Positions 9,706-16,815 of a DNA stretch of 64,000 nucleotides are shown here, one piece after another (position 1 is the first letter of the stretch; the number at the start of each line of letters is the position of its first letter). The notes beneath the pieces are model-generated. The model did no database searches. It saw nothing but the letters and a program-made list of their open reading frames with translations, and was not told where the DNA came from. A program made the translations under genes and the position numbers. Source of the DNA: Desulfothermus okinawensis JCM 13304. GTDB taxonomy: Bacteria; Desulfobacterota; Desulfovibrionia; Desulfovibrionales; Desulfothermaceae. Location of the stretch: positions 1 to 64,000 of the forward strand of contig BBBM01000004.1 in NCBI GenBank assembly GCA_001311565.1, written 5' to 3'.

Positions 9706-10830
9706 AATGCGTCTTTGTTTGATGGAAGGAAATGAGGCAATTGCACGTGCAGCAGTGGCCGCGGGTTGTAGGTTTTTTTGCGGGATATCCAATAACCCCG
9801 GCCACCTCTCTGTATCATGAAATGTTAAAACTTCTCCCTCCTCTTGGAGGTATTTGTATTCAGGGGGAAGATGAAATAGCCTCTATTGGATTTTGTCTTG
9901 GGGCCTCTTTAAGTGGAATGAAAGTCATGACTGCTACTTCCGGTCCAGGAATCAGTCTCTACAGTGAACAGATATCCTTTGCTATTGGAAGCGAGATCCC
10001 AATAGTAATTGTGGATGTCCAGAGGTTAGGCCCTTCCACTGGTTCTGCAACTCGTGGTGCTGACGGTGACATACAGTTTTTGAGGTGGGGAAATTCTGGA
10101 GGATTACCAGTAATAGTCCTGGCTCCTGTAGATGTCAAAGATTGTTTTGTATTAACTATACATGCCTTTAACCTTGCAGAACAATATCGTTGTCCAGTGT
10201 TTATCGCCTCCAATAAAGAACTTGGGATGACCAGAGATACAATTAATCTAAAAGAAGTAAAACTTCCTCCATTAGTTAATCGAAAGATGGCGGATGATAG
10301 TGAGCCTTATCTTCCATACAAGACGGAAAATGATAATTCTCCCCCTTCCTTTCTTCCTCTTGGGAGCAAGCAACTTGTACGTATTACATCTTCAACCCAT
10401 GGAATAAACGGATACATTACTACAGATCCTGAAGAGATAAGTAATTTTCAAAATAGGCTCTACAAGAAGATAGAATCTCACATAGATGAATTTTCTTTTT
10501 ATGATTTTTTTTGAAATAAAAGGGGCTGATACCCTTGTTATAACTTATGGTGTTACAGCTAGGGCAGCCAAGGTAGCTGTAAAAAAATCTTGCAAAAAAA
10601 CAATATTATGGCTTCATTACTTGTGTTAAAAACATTATGGCCTGTGCCTGAAAAGCTAATTAGAGAAAAGGGAAAAAAACTACAAAAAGATAGTAGTTGT
10701 TGAGATGAATCTTGGACAATATGTTAGAGAAATAAAAAGGATATTTTATGATAAAAAGATAAATTTTCTGGGACAGATGAATGGTATGCTAATTTCACCT
10801 ACCCAGATTGAGGAGGCAATTACAAGATGA
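9706..10830 (+). CDS. korA: 2-oxoacid:ferredoxin oxidoreductase alpha subunit
   Basis: Alpha subunit of a KorA/VorA-type 2-oxoacid:ferredoxin oxidoreductase. The N-terminus LMEGNEAIARAAVAAGCRFF leads directly into AGYPITPAT, the conserved thiamine-diphosphate pyrimidine-domain motif; QGEDEIASIGFCLGASLSG and MTATSGPGISL follow. The C-terminal domain includes VVVEMNLGQYVREI. About 374 residues. Single extra bases break the frame near 9771 (T7), 10505 (T8), 10584, 10602 and 10675 (A7 runs). The stop overlaps the next start as ATGA. In context the likely substrate is 2-oxoadipate, giving glutaryl-CoA, CO2 and reduced ferredoxin; 2-oxoglutarate or branched 2-oxo acids are alternatives. Confidence 0.86.
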
Positions 10831-12129
10831 CTGACACCAGTTTATTAAATAAAAGTAGACCTCCAGTATTTTGCCCAGGATGTTCTCATGAACGTGTGGT
10901 ACAGGCCTTAGACAAGGCATTGATACGATTAGGTGTTAAAGGAAACCAGGTGGTAATTGTTTCTGATATTGGTTGTTCAGGGCTTTTTGATACCTTTTTT
11001 TAATACCCATGCGGTACATGGACTTCATGGCAGGGCACTAACCTATGCTACAGGTATAAAGTTAGCTAGACCTGAGCTTAAGGTTATAGTTACAATGGGA
11101 GATGGAGGTCTTGGAATTGGAGGTGCGCATGTATTGGCAACATGTAGGAGAAATATTGACCTTACTTTGTTGGTTTTAAATAATTTTAACTATGGTATGA
11201 CAGGTGGACAGTATTCTGTTACTACCCCCCAAGATGCTAAAGTATCCTCAGGATTTTTAAATCAATTGGAAAAACCAATTGACATATGTCAGGTAACTGC
11301 CTCTGCTGGAGCTGGTTGGGTGGATAGAACTTCCGTATATGAAAAGAATCTTGTTGAAAAGATTGAGGAGGCAATAAGATTTGAAGGTTTTTCTGTTTTA
11401 GATATTTGGGGTATATGTACAGGAAGATATATAAAGCGAAATGAAATCTCTCCTAAGATAATTAAGAAAAAAGATTGAAAAACTTCCTGAGTGGACGCAC
11501 TTTTTAAAACAAAATAAAAGACCTGAATACACCAAACATTATACAGAGGTGGCAAATAATACATCCAGTCCACCAGAACCTATAGAATTTGAGACATTGT
11601 ATTCGCCACCTCAAAATAAAAGACATGAAATAGTTATCATGGGAGCAGCTGGTCAAAGAATTGTTACTGCTGGAGAACTTCTTTGTATGGCAGGTGTCAC
11701 AGCTGGTCTTTATACAACTCAGAAGAATGATTATCCTATCACAGTGATGCGTGGTCATTCTGTCACAGAAGTCATTTTAAGTCCAGAGAAAGTTGATTTT
11801 ACAGGGATTGAAAATCCCACAGTATTAATTGCCCTGGCTGAAGAAGGTGTAAATAGAAAAAAAATCTCTTTTTAAAACCCTATCACCGGATACCACCATT
11901 ATTATAAAAAAAGGGCCTAAACATTCCGCCCAATAATGGATCTACAATTGAACTTGACTTTGATGCAAGAAAAATTCGTTCTCAAGATCTTGCTCTTGCC
12001 TCTATTGCATGGCTTGCCAAAAATAAAATTGCAATAAATGAAGATATGCTAACGTCTGCTCTTAAATACCGTTTTAAGGGAGAAGTATTAACCAAGGCCC
12101 TTCAAATAACAAAAACCTGGAAGGAATAA
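10827..12129 (+). CDS. 2-oxoacid:ferredoxin oxidoreductase, fused beta-gamma subunit
   Basis: The first part is a KorB-type beta subunit: CPGCSHERVVQAL near residue 15, SDIGCSG near 48, the TPP motif GDGGLGIGGAH near 92 and CTGRY near 200, giving four cysteines placed as for a 4Fe-4S cluster. After a linker of about 50 residues (SSPPEPIEFE) the frame continues into a gamma (KorC) domain beginning HEIVIMGAAGQRIVTAGELL and containing RGHSVTEVILS. I find no stop or ribosome site between the domains, so this appears to be a natural fusion of about 430 residues. Single extra bases occur near 10999 (T7), 11467 (A6), 11863 (A8) and 11907 (A7). No separate ferredoxin-type delta subunit is adjacent. 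Confidence 0.82.
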
Positions 12130-12132
12130 TTT

Positions 12133-13098
12133 ATGAAGGTAAGATTTCTTTGTTCAGAGGATGTTAAAAAGGCGCTTCCTATGGAAAAGGCAATTGATGT
12201 CATGGCTGAAGCCTTTTCTCAGTTTTCTTCAGGGAGAGCTCAAGTGCCATTAAGGAATCGAGTTAAAACTAAAAAAAGGAGAAACATTATTTATGCCAGC
12301 CTATCTTATGGATACTGGGGCTGTAGCAATTAAGGTGGTATCTGTGTACCCAGAAAATATAGAGCATGGCTTGCCAACAGTTCCAGGCATTGTCCTAGCT
12401 ATTGATTCAGATACAGGAATACCCCGGGCGATTATAGAAGGTTATACCCTAACAGCTATTAGAACCGGTGCTGCAGGCGGACTTGCAGCCAAACTTCTCT
12501 CCTTACCAAATTCAGAGAATTTGGTTGTTTTTGGTGCAGGAACTCAAGGGTGGGCACAGATTTGTGGAGTACTTGCTGTTAGGAATATAAAACGCATATG
12601 GATCTTTGATCCGAATGAAAAAAAATAAAGAAAATCTTGCCCTCAAATTAAAATCACTCCCATCTCCCCCCGACGTAATTATATTTGACGACCCCAATAA
12701 AGCTGTAAGTAGAGCACATATAATCGTTACAGCTACAACATCTACTACTCCTGTATTTGATGGAAGTTATGTTAGGCCCGGAACCCATGTAACTGCTGTT
12801 GGATCTTATACCCCTAATATGCAGGAGATAGATGGCAAACTTATGCAACAGGCTAAAGTAGTGGTTGATTCCCGTGAGGCTTGTTTGGCAGAAACAGGAG
12901 ATATTATCAAACCAAAAGTATCAATATATGCTGAAATTGGAGAAATTGTAAGTAAAAAAAAGTCTTGGAAGGACATCTGATGAAGAAATTACCATTTTTA
13001 AGACTGTTGGTATAGCTGTGCAGGATGCGGCTGCTGCGAAAGCAATAGTTGAATATGCAGAACAGAAAAATTTAGGGGAGCTAATGGAGTTAACATGA
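12133..13098 (+). CDS. ornithine cyclodeaminase / mu-crystallin family protein
   Basis: NAD(P)-binding protein of the OCD/mu-crystallin family, about 320 residues. It starts MKVRFLCSEDVKKALPMEKA; the central part has TALRTGAAGGLAAK-like TAIRTGAAGGLAAKLLS and the dinucleotide-binding loop VVFGAGTQGWAQ. Known members include lysine and ornithine cyclodeaminases and ketimine (piperideine-2-carboxylate) reductases. In this operon it could make L-pipecolate either directly from L-lysine or by reducing piperideine-2-carboxylate; sequence alone does not decide. It starts three bases after the beta-gamma gene. Frame breaks near 12272 (A7), 12622 and 12955 (A7). Confidence 0.82.
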
Positions 13099-13259: not shown

Positions 13260-14510
13260 ATGGAAAATAGTTTAAATCCATTTCACATAGCACAAAAGCA
13301 ATTAGATGAAGCAGCGGAGTATTTGGGGTTAGATGAATCAACCATGAACTTTTGAGATGGCCAATGATGGAGCTTCATTTTCGTATTCCAGTGAGGATGG
13401 ATGATGGTAGTATCAAGGTATTTGAGGCATTTAGGGTGCAGTATAACACGGCTAGGGGACCTGCAAAAGGCGGAATAAGATGGCATCCTGATGAGACCAT
13501 AGATACTGTTAGAGCACTTGCTGCATGGATGACATGGAAGACAGCAGTCTTAGATCTGCCCCTAGGAGGTGGAAAAGGTGGTGTTGTTTGTAATCCAAAG
13601 GAGCTTTCAGAGCCAGAAAAGGAGCGTCTGGCTAGAGGTTACATGAGAGCTGCTGGGAAACACCTAGGAGTATTTCAGGATGTCCCAGCACCTGATGTAT
13701 ACACTAATCCACAAATTATGGCGTGGATGATGGATGAATATGAAACCTTGGTTGGGGAAAAACATCCTGGAGTTATTACTGGAAAGCCCTTGCCTTTGGG
13801 AGGCTCTCCTGGAAGAAAAAGTGCCACTGCACGTGGTGGTATCTATGTGGTAAGGGAGGCAGCAAAAGCAATAGGGCTTAATTTAGAAGGTAACTCAATG
13901 GCAGTGCAGGGATTTGGAAATGCTGGGCAGAATGCAGCTATTTTAGGTGAAACTTTACTTAAAATGAAGTTAGTTGCTGTGTCAGATTCAAAAGGGGGAA
14001 TTTATAATCCAAAGGGTATTAATGTGAAAGCATTAATTGAGTACAAGAGAGAGACTGGTTCAGTTGTAGGTTTTAAAGATGCAGATTCCATAACCAATGA
14101 GGAATTACTTGAATTAGATGTTACAGTATTATTTCCTGCAGCACTTGAAAATGTAATAACTGAGGAAAATGCAGATAAAATAAAATGTAAAATAAGTTGT
14201 GAGCTTGCAAATGGTCCAACAACTCCTGAAGCTGATAATATTTTATTTGATAGAGGTATATTGGTTCTTCCTGACTTTTTGGCAAATGCAGGCGGTGTTA
14301 CTGTATCCTATTTTGAACAGGTGCAGAATGCATATAATTATTATTGGAGTCTTAAGGAGATCCAAAGAAGATTATGTGAAAAAAATGACCAAGGCATTTA
14401 GAGCAGTTTATGAGATGCATATAAAAGAGAATATCCACATGAGAAAGGCTGCTTATCTTTTAGCTGTATCAAGGGTAGCTGAAGCATGTAGACTTAGGGG
14501 TTGGGTATAG
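13260..14510 (+). CDS. gdhA: glutamate dehydrogenase (Glu/Leu/Phe/Val family)
   Basis: NAD(P)-dependent glutamate dehydrogenase of about 417 residues. Visible motifs are [18 protein letters not shown], the catalytic-lysine segment [22 protein letters not shown] (dinucleotide fold) and [16 protein letters not shown]. The start follows AGGAGG. The frame breaks near 13351, where FLRWP needs one more T (T5 read as T4, an exception to the usual insertion), and near 14382 (A7, one A too many). Together with the aminotransferase downstream it would recycle glutamate to 2-oxoglutarate and release ammonia during amino acid catabolism. Confidence 0.92.
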
Positions 14511-16815
14511 ATGAAATTAGATCTGCACCATAATATACTTATTCAATTAATCAAAGAGTATGAACTAATTAACCGTATATTTAAATATCCTGAAATAAAA
14601 AATACCGTATTTTCAGTTTTTAAAGATGCTTTAAAAGAGAATTTCAATATAGATGAAGCTGTTATTGAGAGTAAAATATATCAAGTAAAAAGCCTATTAA
14701 GACAACGAATAGAGGAGGAAGAATTAAAAAAAGATACTCGTTGTTATATTTTTTTTCCATTTATTTTGAGAATAGTAGATGGGATGATTATATTAATCTC
14801 GCAAGAAAAAAAGGTATTGTTTAAAAAAATTAGCAAAAACAGTTAACAAAGAAGGGGCAACCTATGGACAGATACTAAGAGCACTTAAGAAGTTTTGCGA
14901 AATTCCAGAGGGGGACTTGTATCTTTCTCCAAGTGAGGTAGAAGGGATGAGGGTTGCCCTGATTAATTATTTTATCTCAAATCAACTGTCTTTTATCAGC
15001 ATTGCCAAAAATCATATCACAGTCAGAGATGTAAATGATATTTTGGAAAATACATACAGGAGTAAGAGAAGGCCTGGTAGAATTGGTGGTAAGGCAGCAG
15101 GTATGTATCTCGCTTATAGGATACTTGTGCCAAGGTTTGGGGATAGAGATAAGGATCTGGAAAAATATATAAAAATCCCAGAATCCTATTATTTCAATTC
15201 AGGAATTTTTTTCAGAATTCATAGATTATAACGACCTATATGAGTTTCATACACAAAAATATAAAACATTAGAGGAGATTCAAAAAGGATATGAGCAGAT
15301 AAGCGAGCTTTTTAAAAGGGCAAAATTTCCAGATAACATAGTTGATCAATTTAAGGAATTTTTAAAAAAAGGTGGGAGAACACCCCTTGATTCTTCGTTC
15401 ATCTAGTCTATTAGAAGACAACTTTGGATATGCCTTTTCAGGAAAATATGATTCTGTATTTCTTGCAAATCAAGGAGATATAGAGACAAGATTAGAAGAA
15501 TTTATTTTAGGTCTGAAACAGGTACATATGAGTGCCTATTCTCCTGCAGCGTTAATATATAGAAGAGATCGTAACTTACTTGATTTTGATGAACGAATGA
15601 GTGTTCTTGTTCAAAAAGTGGTTGGCAGAAGAGTTGGGAACTATTTTTTTCCCCTTTGCTGCTGGTGTAGGATTTTCTTATAGTTCTTATTCATGGTCAC
15701 CTAAAATTGATAAAAATCTGGGAATGGTTAGGTTGGTGTTAGGACTTGGAACCCGAGCAGTGGATAGGGTTGGTGGAGACTATCCCAGAATGATTTACCT
15801 CTCTCATCCTTCTCTACGTCCAGAAGTGAGTGCAGACCAAATAGTAAAATATTCTCAAAAATTCATAGATGTGTTAGATATTAAAGAAAGGTGTGTGAAG
15901 AGCGTTTCTATAAAGGAATTTATAAAACAAGCAAAACATCCAGAAATGTATCATGCCATTTCAATAATAGACAACGAGCACATCTCATCCCCACTTTTTA
16001 AAAAAAGTTCCTTTAGATAAAGTATCTGTGTGTATAACTTTTGATAATCTCATAAAAAAAAACAAAATTCATTGCCCTAATGAAGAAGGTCTTAAAAAAA
16101 TTAGAAGAGGCTTATAATACACCTGTTGACGTAGAATTTGCCTGGGACAATGGGATATTATATATTTTACAGTGTAGACCTCTTTTTGTGACTCAAGAAG
16201 AACATGATGTAGAAATTCCTCATGATATTCCAGACAAAGATATCATTTTTACAACCCACATGGCATTAAATAATTGTAAGATAGAAGGAATAAAATATGT
16301 CATTTATGTTGATCCCAAAAAAATATGCCACTATACCATCTCCTCAAAAAAAAGATAAAAGTTGGACACATTGTGGGCAAACTCAACAGGTGTCTTGAGA
16401 AGGGTTCCTTTGCTCTTTTTGGACCTGGTAGATGGGGATCAAATGATTTAAATTTAGGAGTAAAAGTGACTTATGAGGATATAAATAGAGCAAAAGTGTT
16501 AGCTGAAGTTGCCTTTGAACAAAATGGATCAACTCCTGAAGTATCCTATGGAACACATTTTTTTTAATGATCTTGTGGAATCACAGATACTTCCTTTAGC
16601 TATCTTTCCAAATCATCACAAAACTATTTTTAAAGAGGATTTTTTTTAAAACAGGCAAGAATCTCCTTACACAGATAATATCTGAAGCAGAAGAATTCAA
16701 AGAAATTATATATGTAATTTTAGTGCCAAATGAACACCAGGGAAGATACCTAAATATTTATCAAAATTCTAAGCAACAGTTTGGCGTTGGTTTTCTATGT
16801 CCACCAAGAACTTAA
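14511..16815 (+). CDS. orphan PEP/pyruvate-binding (PPDK_N) ATP-grasp protein
   Basis: Large protein of about 765 residues with only the nucleotide-binding half of PEP synthase/PPDK. Recognisable blocks: PGRIGGKAAGMYLAYRI, LILRSSSLLEDNFGYAFSGK, and near the middle VEFAWDNGILYILQCRP, which match the PPDK_N ATP-grasp fold. I see neither the phosphohistidine swivel domain (TSCGGMTSH type) nor the PEP-binding barrel. It follows the gdh stop without a gap. A C-terminal region with FGPGRWGSNDLNLGVKVTYE is not assigned. The gene has roughly nine single-base insertions in A/T runs (for example near 14822, 15207, 15366, 15647, 16002, 16320, 16560 and 16640). Similar proteins in Desulfobacterota are called phosphoenolpyruvate synthase, but the actual reaction is unknown. 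Confidence 0.7.

Follow-up and report, generated by a model that had tools for sequence, protein, structure and literature searches.

Transfer of phosphate from ATP to a histidine is discussed as the mechanism of rifampin phosphotransferase (RPH), PpsAB and HpeHI in one published account (PMC12167813). RPH is given there a rifampin-binding domain and a canonical histidine motif, and HpeHI, CreHI and PpsAB are described as modular systems acting on phenols, in which a separate ATP-grasp protein is used with a swivel-plus-substrate protein and the parts can work with separate partners (PMC12167813). The protein analysed here carries its PPDK_N domain and its swivel-like domain in one chain with no acceptor domain seen. 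RPH (structures 5hv1, 5fbs and 5fbu) is among its closest known relatives by structure, but neither of the two RPH features was seen in its family, and the genomic context of the family is that of glutamate enzymes. With PEP synthase and PPDK it shares a PPDK_N domain with the same conserved residues; unlike them it is without a PEP/pyruvate barrel, and its histidine domain is not recognised by sequence. The family is a member of the PPDK_N superfamily without a known description, of the dikinase kind, in a strongly conserved and unexplained setting. No published account of the family or of its link to glutamate enzymes was found in full-text searches of papers available without subscription.

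In Enzyme I of the phosphotransferase system the swivel domain gives its phosphate to a protein, so a protein acceptor has precedent. GlnD and GlnE control PII and glutamine synthetase covalently, by nucleotidyl transfer. The family would similarly be a covalent control of an ammonia-assimilation enzyme, but by phosphohistidine transfer and with an unrelated fold, although one tandem member (locus L085) has an added nucleotidyltransferase-like domain. Nitrogen enters and leaves metabolism through glutamate dehydrogenase (GDH) and glutamate synthase (GOGAT). A gene that has stayed beside them in both bacteria and archaea, whatever the orientation, enzyme type and phylum, is strongly suspected either of controlling these enzymes or of catalysing an unknown side reaction.

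The gene in the window and its intact relative

The window is the whole stretch of 64,000 nucleotides that was analysed, and the gene occupies 14511-16815 on its forward strand. It directly follows gdhA (glutamate dehydrogenase; 13352-14510, forward strand), the 3' end of which lies near a frame break; the last codon of the frame that continues gdhA finishes at 14510, directly before the ATG at 14511 that starts the PPDK_N gene. The open part of gdhA was matched by PF00208 (E 3.4e-67) and PF02812 in Pfam, and gdhA is 89% identical over 336 residues to a second gdhA of the same genome. The sequence-only reading had described an orphan gene between gdhA and an aminotransferase. The upstream neighbour stands; the aminotransferase had no Pfam match on its open 101-aa piece, and the gene is not unique in its genome, a second copy having been found on contig C13 (L040), likewise 3' of a gdhA. 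Pieces of a 2-oxoacid:ferredoxin oxidoreductase and an ornithine cyclodeaminase/mu-crystallin gene lie at 9732-12980, 5' of gdhA, and an oxidoreductase cluster of this kind was also seen by eye near the C13 copy.

A single protein is encoded in 14511-16815, but its reading frame is interrupted: about ten frame segments are separated by nine frame changes, and every change falls at or close to one of 14 runs of 7-9 A or T. The gene is real. Its frame changes were taken as an assembly fault, since breaks also occur in gdhA, in the ornithine cyclodeaminase-like gene that precedes it and in other PPDK_N genes of the bin, on other contigs, and the completeness of the bin is estimated at 43.76%. Neither the number of genes nor the pseudogenes called in this bin (G000, the window's genome) can be relied on. 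Runs of at least 7 A or T number 293 in the window (1-64000), and several genes are broken at such runs.

A genome of the same genus (G003) holds an unbroken 758-aa relative (L039:8345-10621), which was aligned along 14520-16797 of the window with tblastn. The N-terminal region was placed at 14511-15050 from this match and the alignment (boundary approximate), the PPDK_N (ATP-grasp type) domain at 15051-16200 from the PF01326 match (boundaries approximate) and the C-terminal domain at 16201-16812, all on the forward strand. The conserved PPDK_N residues are the Lys of GGK (15091), the Arg of RSSS (15396), the acidic pair of D.E (16128/16134) and a Gln and an Arg (16170/16176). The C-terminal domain carries GPGRWGS (16418-16441) and EVSYGTHFF (16538-16564), the latter including the candidate phosphate-carrying His (codon 16556-16558, forward strand; His664 in the L049 protein). 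The motifs were found in the window pieces as GRIGGKAAG (15076), RSSSLLED (15396), PVDVEFAWDNGILYILQCRP (16122), FGPGRWGS (16418) and EVSYGTHFF (16538).

PF01326 was matched in the window at 15354-15638 (E 5.5e-17, one stop inside) and 16071-16226 (E 2.3e-10), which bears out the nucleotide-binding domain proposed earlier. In the intact relative the PF01326 match scored 175.5-176 bits against a gathering cut-off of 27 (E 1.6e-51; profile positions 3-314 of 328), and PPDK_N was the sole Pfam domain at E <= 0.01 (175.5 bits, residues 188-559). Six intact members were matched by PF01326, three of them also by Response_reg, and none by a PEP/pyruvate-binding barrel domain in Pfam, in agreement with the proposed lack of a PEP domain. 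No NCBIfam model reached its cut-off in the intact relative: the pyruvate, water dikinase and PPDK models gave 70.4 of 739.75 bits (TIGR01418) and 21.4 of 843.45 bits (TIGR01828), and the RPH model NF041857 gave 26.3 of 999 bits. The nearest sequences in the Protein Data Bank are rifampin phosphotransferases, weakly matched. By eye, pilus genes and not gdhA lie upstream of the G003 gene and two-component genes adjoin it; the genes downstream of the C13 copy (a response regulator, a histidine kinase and others) are, again by eye, common to the G003 locus.

Predicted fold of the C-terminal domain

The member at locus L049, 57% identical to the G003 protein over the core, was modelled as a whole protein (pLDDT 89.5, pTM 0.87). 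The best structural match, over PPDK_N, was RPH 5hv1 (Z 19.9, 298 residues); other matches include PEP synthase 2ols (Z 18.6, 370 residues; model 134-745, chain 12-467), PPDK 1dik (Z 15.6, 353 residues; model 134-747, chain 10-513) and HpeI 9goj (Z 13.8). The ranges give first and last residues only, and those of the model extend to 735-747.

ATP-grasp ligases also match this model, lower down the structural ranking. In a ligase, PPDK_N would itself activate a carboxylate or carbonyl, and binding of the second substrate would fall to the C-terminal domain, a route of the kind proposed for PigC/RedH-like proteins, and the PigC and RedH models do match the PPDK_N part of the intact relative. These matches reach 43.3 of 1300 required bits for PigC (NF052631) and 21.1 of 1350 for NF052632, both short of the cut-offs; the best structural matches are dikinases, and the C-terminal fold matches phosphohistidine domains first. 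A ligase is on this evidence distinctly improbable.

The C-terminal domain, of about 200 residues, carries GPGRWG and a near-invariant His. Structure prediction of this region had been proposed as a check in the sequence-only reading, and the L049 domain modelled alone with AF2 gave a confident model (pLDDT 94.8, pTM 0.92). The top eight VIA rows for the isolated domain were all phosphohistidine domains (Z 5.5-6.3, 101-122 residues): six from PPDK (5jvj and 5jvl 375-512, 5lu4 382-512, 2r82 375-511, 2x0s 402-534 and 1kbl 380-507), the RPH swivel domain 5fbu 756-867 (Z 5.9, 110 residues) and EI-Ntr 5t1o. These Z-scores are middling (below 8). The lower ones are level with those of rows 9 and 10, two unrelated enzymes: a muramoyltetrapeptide carboxypeptidase (Z 5.3) and an MccF-like protein (Z 5.2). 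Rows 9 and 10, together with further VIA rows for RraA-like proteins, aconitase and GroEL/TRiC, belong to the SCOP swivelling beta/beta/alpha fold. In the domain model the near-invariant His starts a helix (120-127) between two strands; the catalytic His of PPDK likewise starts a helix between strands.

Other comparisons of the domain gave no match. Foldseek with the C-terminal domain alone returned nothing at E <= 0.001, the top rows being CD38 and acetylxylan esterase (E 0.04-0.12). No family member was among the places listed for PF00391 in 16 genomes, and comparison with 25 canonical histidine regions by hhalign gave a probability of 0.1. The family lacks the canonical GGxT(S/C)H motif. 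From the predicted structure, the C-terminal domain is probably a swivelling fold of the phosphohistidine type and may have the corresponding role. The earlier statement that a phosphohistidine domain is missing is correct for Pfam, but the predicted structure points to such a domain in the C-terminal region. Of the ligation or phosphorylation proposed there, the evidence is better for a dikinase-type phosphorylation, given that PPDK_N is followed by a swivel-like domain with a histidine.

Family breadth and linkage to glutamate enzymes

The C-terminal piece was matched at E <= 0.001 in 35 of 101 genomes near that of the window, and a scan of named genomes gave at least 584 candidates. The best 80 of these at least 584 were taken as named loci, with tandem members counted singly, and come from Chloroflexota, Thermodesulfobacteriota, Calditrichota, Ignavibacteriota, Bacteroidota, Acidobacteriota, Gemmatimonadota, archaea and others. 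Conserved residues were scored by pattern in 172 members (149 loci). The PPDK_N Lys was present in 169, the Arg in 171 and D.E...Q.R in 165; GPGRWG was present in 157 and G(T/S/A)HFF in 168. The C-terminal His itself is kept in 170 of the 172, two of the four exceptions to the last pattern (GTHFY and GTHFL) retaining it. In the tandem second copies L069:11817-14192 and L077:11821-14166 the His is replaced by Asp (GTDF), and the first copy keeps the His.

A neighbourhood survey, also proposed as a check, was made across the phylum. Among 395 genomes, matches at E <= 1e-10 were obtained in 227, and 125 places with E <= 2.5e-81, in 114 genomes with the window's own genome outside the count, were counted as members. 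Fragments from the own genome were left out, as were the G441 gene's second fragment and rows at E >= 7.6e-21, taken for other PPDK_N proteins. For 41 genomes further GDH places were added, from rows at about E 1e-40 or better plus a single row at 3.7e-27, and the linkage counts are lower bounds. At least 86 of the 125 members (at least 84 of the 114 genomes) lie within 5 kb of a GDH, where about one would be expected by chance as estimated from genome size. GDH is on the same strand and upstream in 36 of these pairs and downstream in 28; 21 pairs are convergent and 1 is divergent. PF00391 places, which include PEP synthase/PPDK-type enzymes, served as a control: in 11 genomes with a listed GDH (of 16 searched), 11 of 12 members but 0 of 50 PF00391 places lay within 10 kb of a listed GDH.

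Loci were fetched for 20 of the 39 unlinked members and 40 of the at least 86 linked ones. The 20 unlinked loci held a GDH fragment (1), a glutamate synthase match within 6 kb (9), AmtB/PII/GS-III (1) or none of these (9); representatives were checked with Pfam, and three of the nine GOGAT labels (L183, L185 and L187) are weak, with matches of only 27-31% identity. Another L183 gene had no Pfam match. Across the 60 phylum loci NrpR was seen in seven that also hold the pair of GDH and family gene (L135, L136, L139, L140, L142, L149 and L150; PF01995 checked in L140 only), GS-III in L136, AmtB in L162, PII in L183 and sigma-54/GAF regulators in some (checked in L177). At order level 3 of 8 loci lie by a GDH and 5 do not; a ninth, truncated locus (L042) also lies by one.

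For the named members (best 80 of at least 584 candidates), 49 of 55 outside Chloroflexota have GDH, GOGAT or another nitrogen gene within 6 kb, but in Chloroflexota only 6 of 47 and in Promineifilum 0 of 2. In Bellilinea caldifistulae GOMI-1 (locus L112) the member has a GDH next to it. Two GDH types, about 33% identical, are both linked to members. On a FastTree tree of the 172 members, label changes on starred branches numbered at least 13 (GDH type 1), at least 20 (type 2) and at least 7 (GOGAT), the type changes being partly inflated because L088, L090, L096, L115 and L119 contain both GDH types and the label was that of the higher-scoring or nearer GDH. The association with GDH and GOGAT has apparently been retained, or acquired anew, on many occasions.

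The linkage could be neutral or transcriptional, with an operon shared with GDH for expression only, and most Chloroflexota members and the G003 gene, being without a GDH neighbour, would fit this. The linkage outlasts changes of orientation, GDH type and phylum, however, and convergent pairs cannot share an operon, so this explanation is very unlikely. The partner is the glutamate/ammonia node and not amino acid catabolism generally. The proposed link to catabolic genes is conserved and stronger than claimed, with its partner corrected to GDH and glutamate synthase. A broad, context-free distribution had been named in the sequence-only reading as what would speak against such a link; the distribution is indeed broad, but outside most Chloroflexota it is not context-free. 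An early reading of the family as context-free, made from the G003 locus, was dropped after the neighbourhood survey.

A neighbouring aminotransferase was also considered as part of the system and rejected. Aminotransferase-like genes were seen by eye in 7 of the 80 named loci (L049, L057, L080, L083, L084, L085 and L110; best 80 of at least 584) and in 3 of the 60 phylum loci, far more rarely than GDH. By eye, a gene resembling the sliding clamp of DNA polymerase is present in 20 loci, mostly of Chloroflexota (e.g. L116:3020-4153), close to many of the members that have no GDH neighbour.

Proposed phosphotransfer and its alternatives

The N-terminal parts of the 172 members were sorted by simple patterns into KaiC-like (51), coiled (17), short (11), receiver (5), other (85, the remainder after sorting) and unassigned (3). 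The KaiC-like label is a reading, these N-termini having no Pfam match; Response_reg was matched by Pfam in three members, one of them slightly under the cut-off. Helices at about residues 1-165 are visible in the L049 model only.

Starting from the domain order, the conserved residues, the predicted fold and the genomic linkage, we tentatively favour, at a likelihood somewhat short of even, a dikinase-type phosphotransferase of the glutamate/ammonia node that passes phosphate to the neighbouring GDH or GOGAT and so regulates its activity. The PPDK_N domain would bind ATP, the beta-phosphate would be passed to the conserved His (His664 in L049) on the C-terminal swivelling domain, and AMP and Pi would be released. 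The phosphate would then be handed to a partner, most likely the GDH encoded alongside or, in other genomes, glutamate synthase; a partner is proposed because no acceptor domain was found in the family protein, which is without a PEP/pyruvate or drug-binding domain of its own. The activity of the partner would be set by the nitrogen or energy state, sensed through the variable N-terminal module. Transfer from ATP to a phosphohistidine is suggested by analogy with PEP synthase, PPDK, RPH and HpeHI, and the glutamate enzymes as target, with a regulatory role, by the linkage.

The variable N-termini, and the NrpR, PII, AmtB, GS-III and sigma-54 regulators of some loci, fit a regulator. Against this best reading stand a histidine domain without sequence support, the mostly unlinked members of Chloroflexota and the G003 gene without a GDH neighbour. 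The GDHs themselves were also compared: for one type, no column separated 34 linked from 20 other enzymes (>=85% versus <=35%), so that no acceptor site stands out; the other type had no unlinked rows for this comparison. If the favoured reading is true, an ATP-using dikinase module can run without its own acceptor domain. The linkage, seen across many bacteria and archaea, hints at a so far undescribed control of nitrogen metabolism.

The strongest alternative is that the protein is a small-molecule dikinase, a pathway enzyme rather than a regulator. By the same chemistry it would pass phosphate to a small molecule that belongs to the glutamate/2-oxoglutarate/ammonia node and is bound by the N-terminal region. 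The N-terminal parts differ, so that no common acceptor site is evident, the receiver domains of some members suggest signalling, and protein acceptors have the precedent of Enzyme I. A metabolite shared by the two enzymes would, on the other hand, fit linkage to both GDH and GOGAT, and some N-terminal motifs are common to many members. RPH, HpeHI, CreHI, PpsAB, PEP synthase and PPDK, moreover, act on small molecules according to the account cited above (PMC12167813). Such a dikinase is possible, if on the unlikely side.

Catalysis might also be lacking altogether. An allosteric partner that binds ATP/ADP and GDH or GOGAT, and reports the energy state by conformational change, would suit the tight linkage, the variable N-terminal parts and the Asp in place of His in two tandem copies (L069 and L077). 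We think it unlikely, as the Lys, Arg, Asp/Glu, Gln/Arg and His are nearly invariant, which is unusual in a pseudoenzyme.

The favoured phosphotransfer to GDH or GOGAT can be extended to a wider and more doubtful proposal: a widespread, undescribed, protein-phosphorylating branch of the PPDK/PEP-synthase dikinases would control GDH and glutamate synthase with phosphate from ATP, relayed by a cryptic phosphohistidine domain. A calcineurin-like phosphoesterase might reverse this, and the whole would be a bacterial and archaeal counterpart to the control of nitrogen assimilation by GlnD/GlnE. A calcineurin-like phosphoesterase lies in the flanks of 11 of the 80 named loci (best 80 of at least 584), with PF00149 matched in L073.

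GDH followed by two tandem members was often seen in Calditrichota, Ignavibacteriota, Bacteroidota, Acidobacteriota and Thermoplasmatota, the first member being short (longer in archaea) and the second having a length of about 1050 aa. In L085 the long second member of such a GDH-linked pair (L085:9032-12235) has at its end a nucleotidyltransferase-like domain (PF01909, 23.5 bits, cut-off 21) of the Pol-beta/NTP_transf_2 type, the superfamily of GlnD/GlnE-type enzymes. The long member of L062 has GSDIDIMIHF at its C-terminal end. In L073 the calcineurin-like phosphoesterase gene (L073:8841-9701) lies on the opposite strand, right after the tandem pair.
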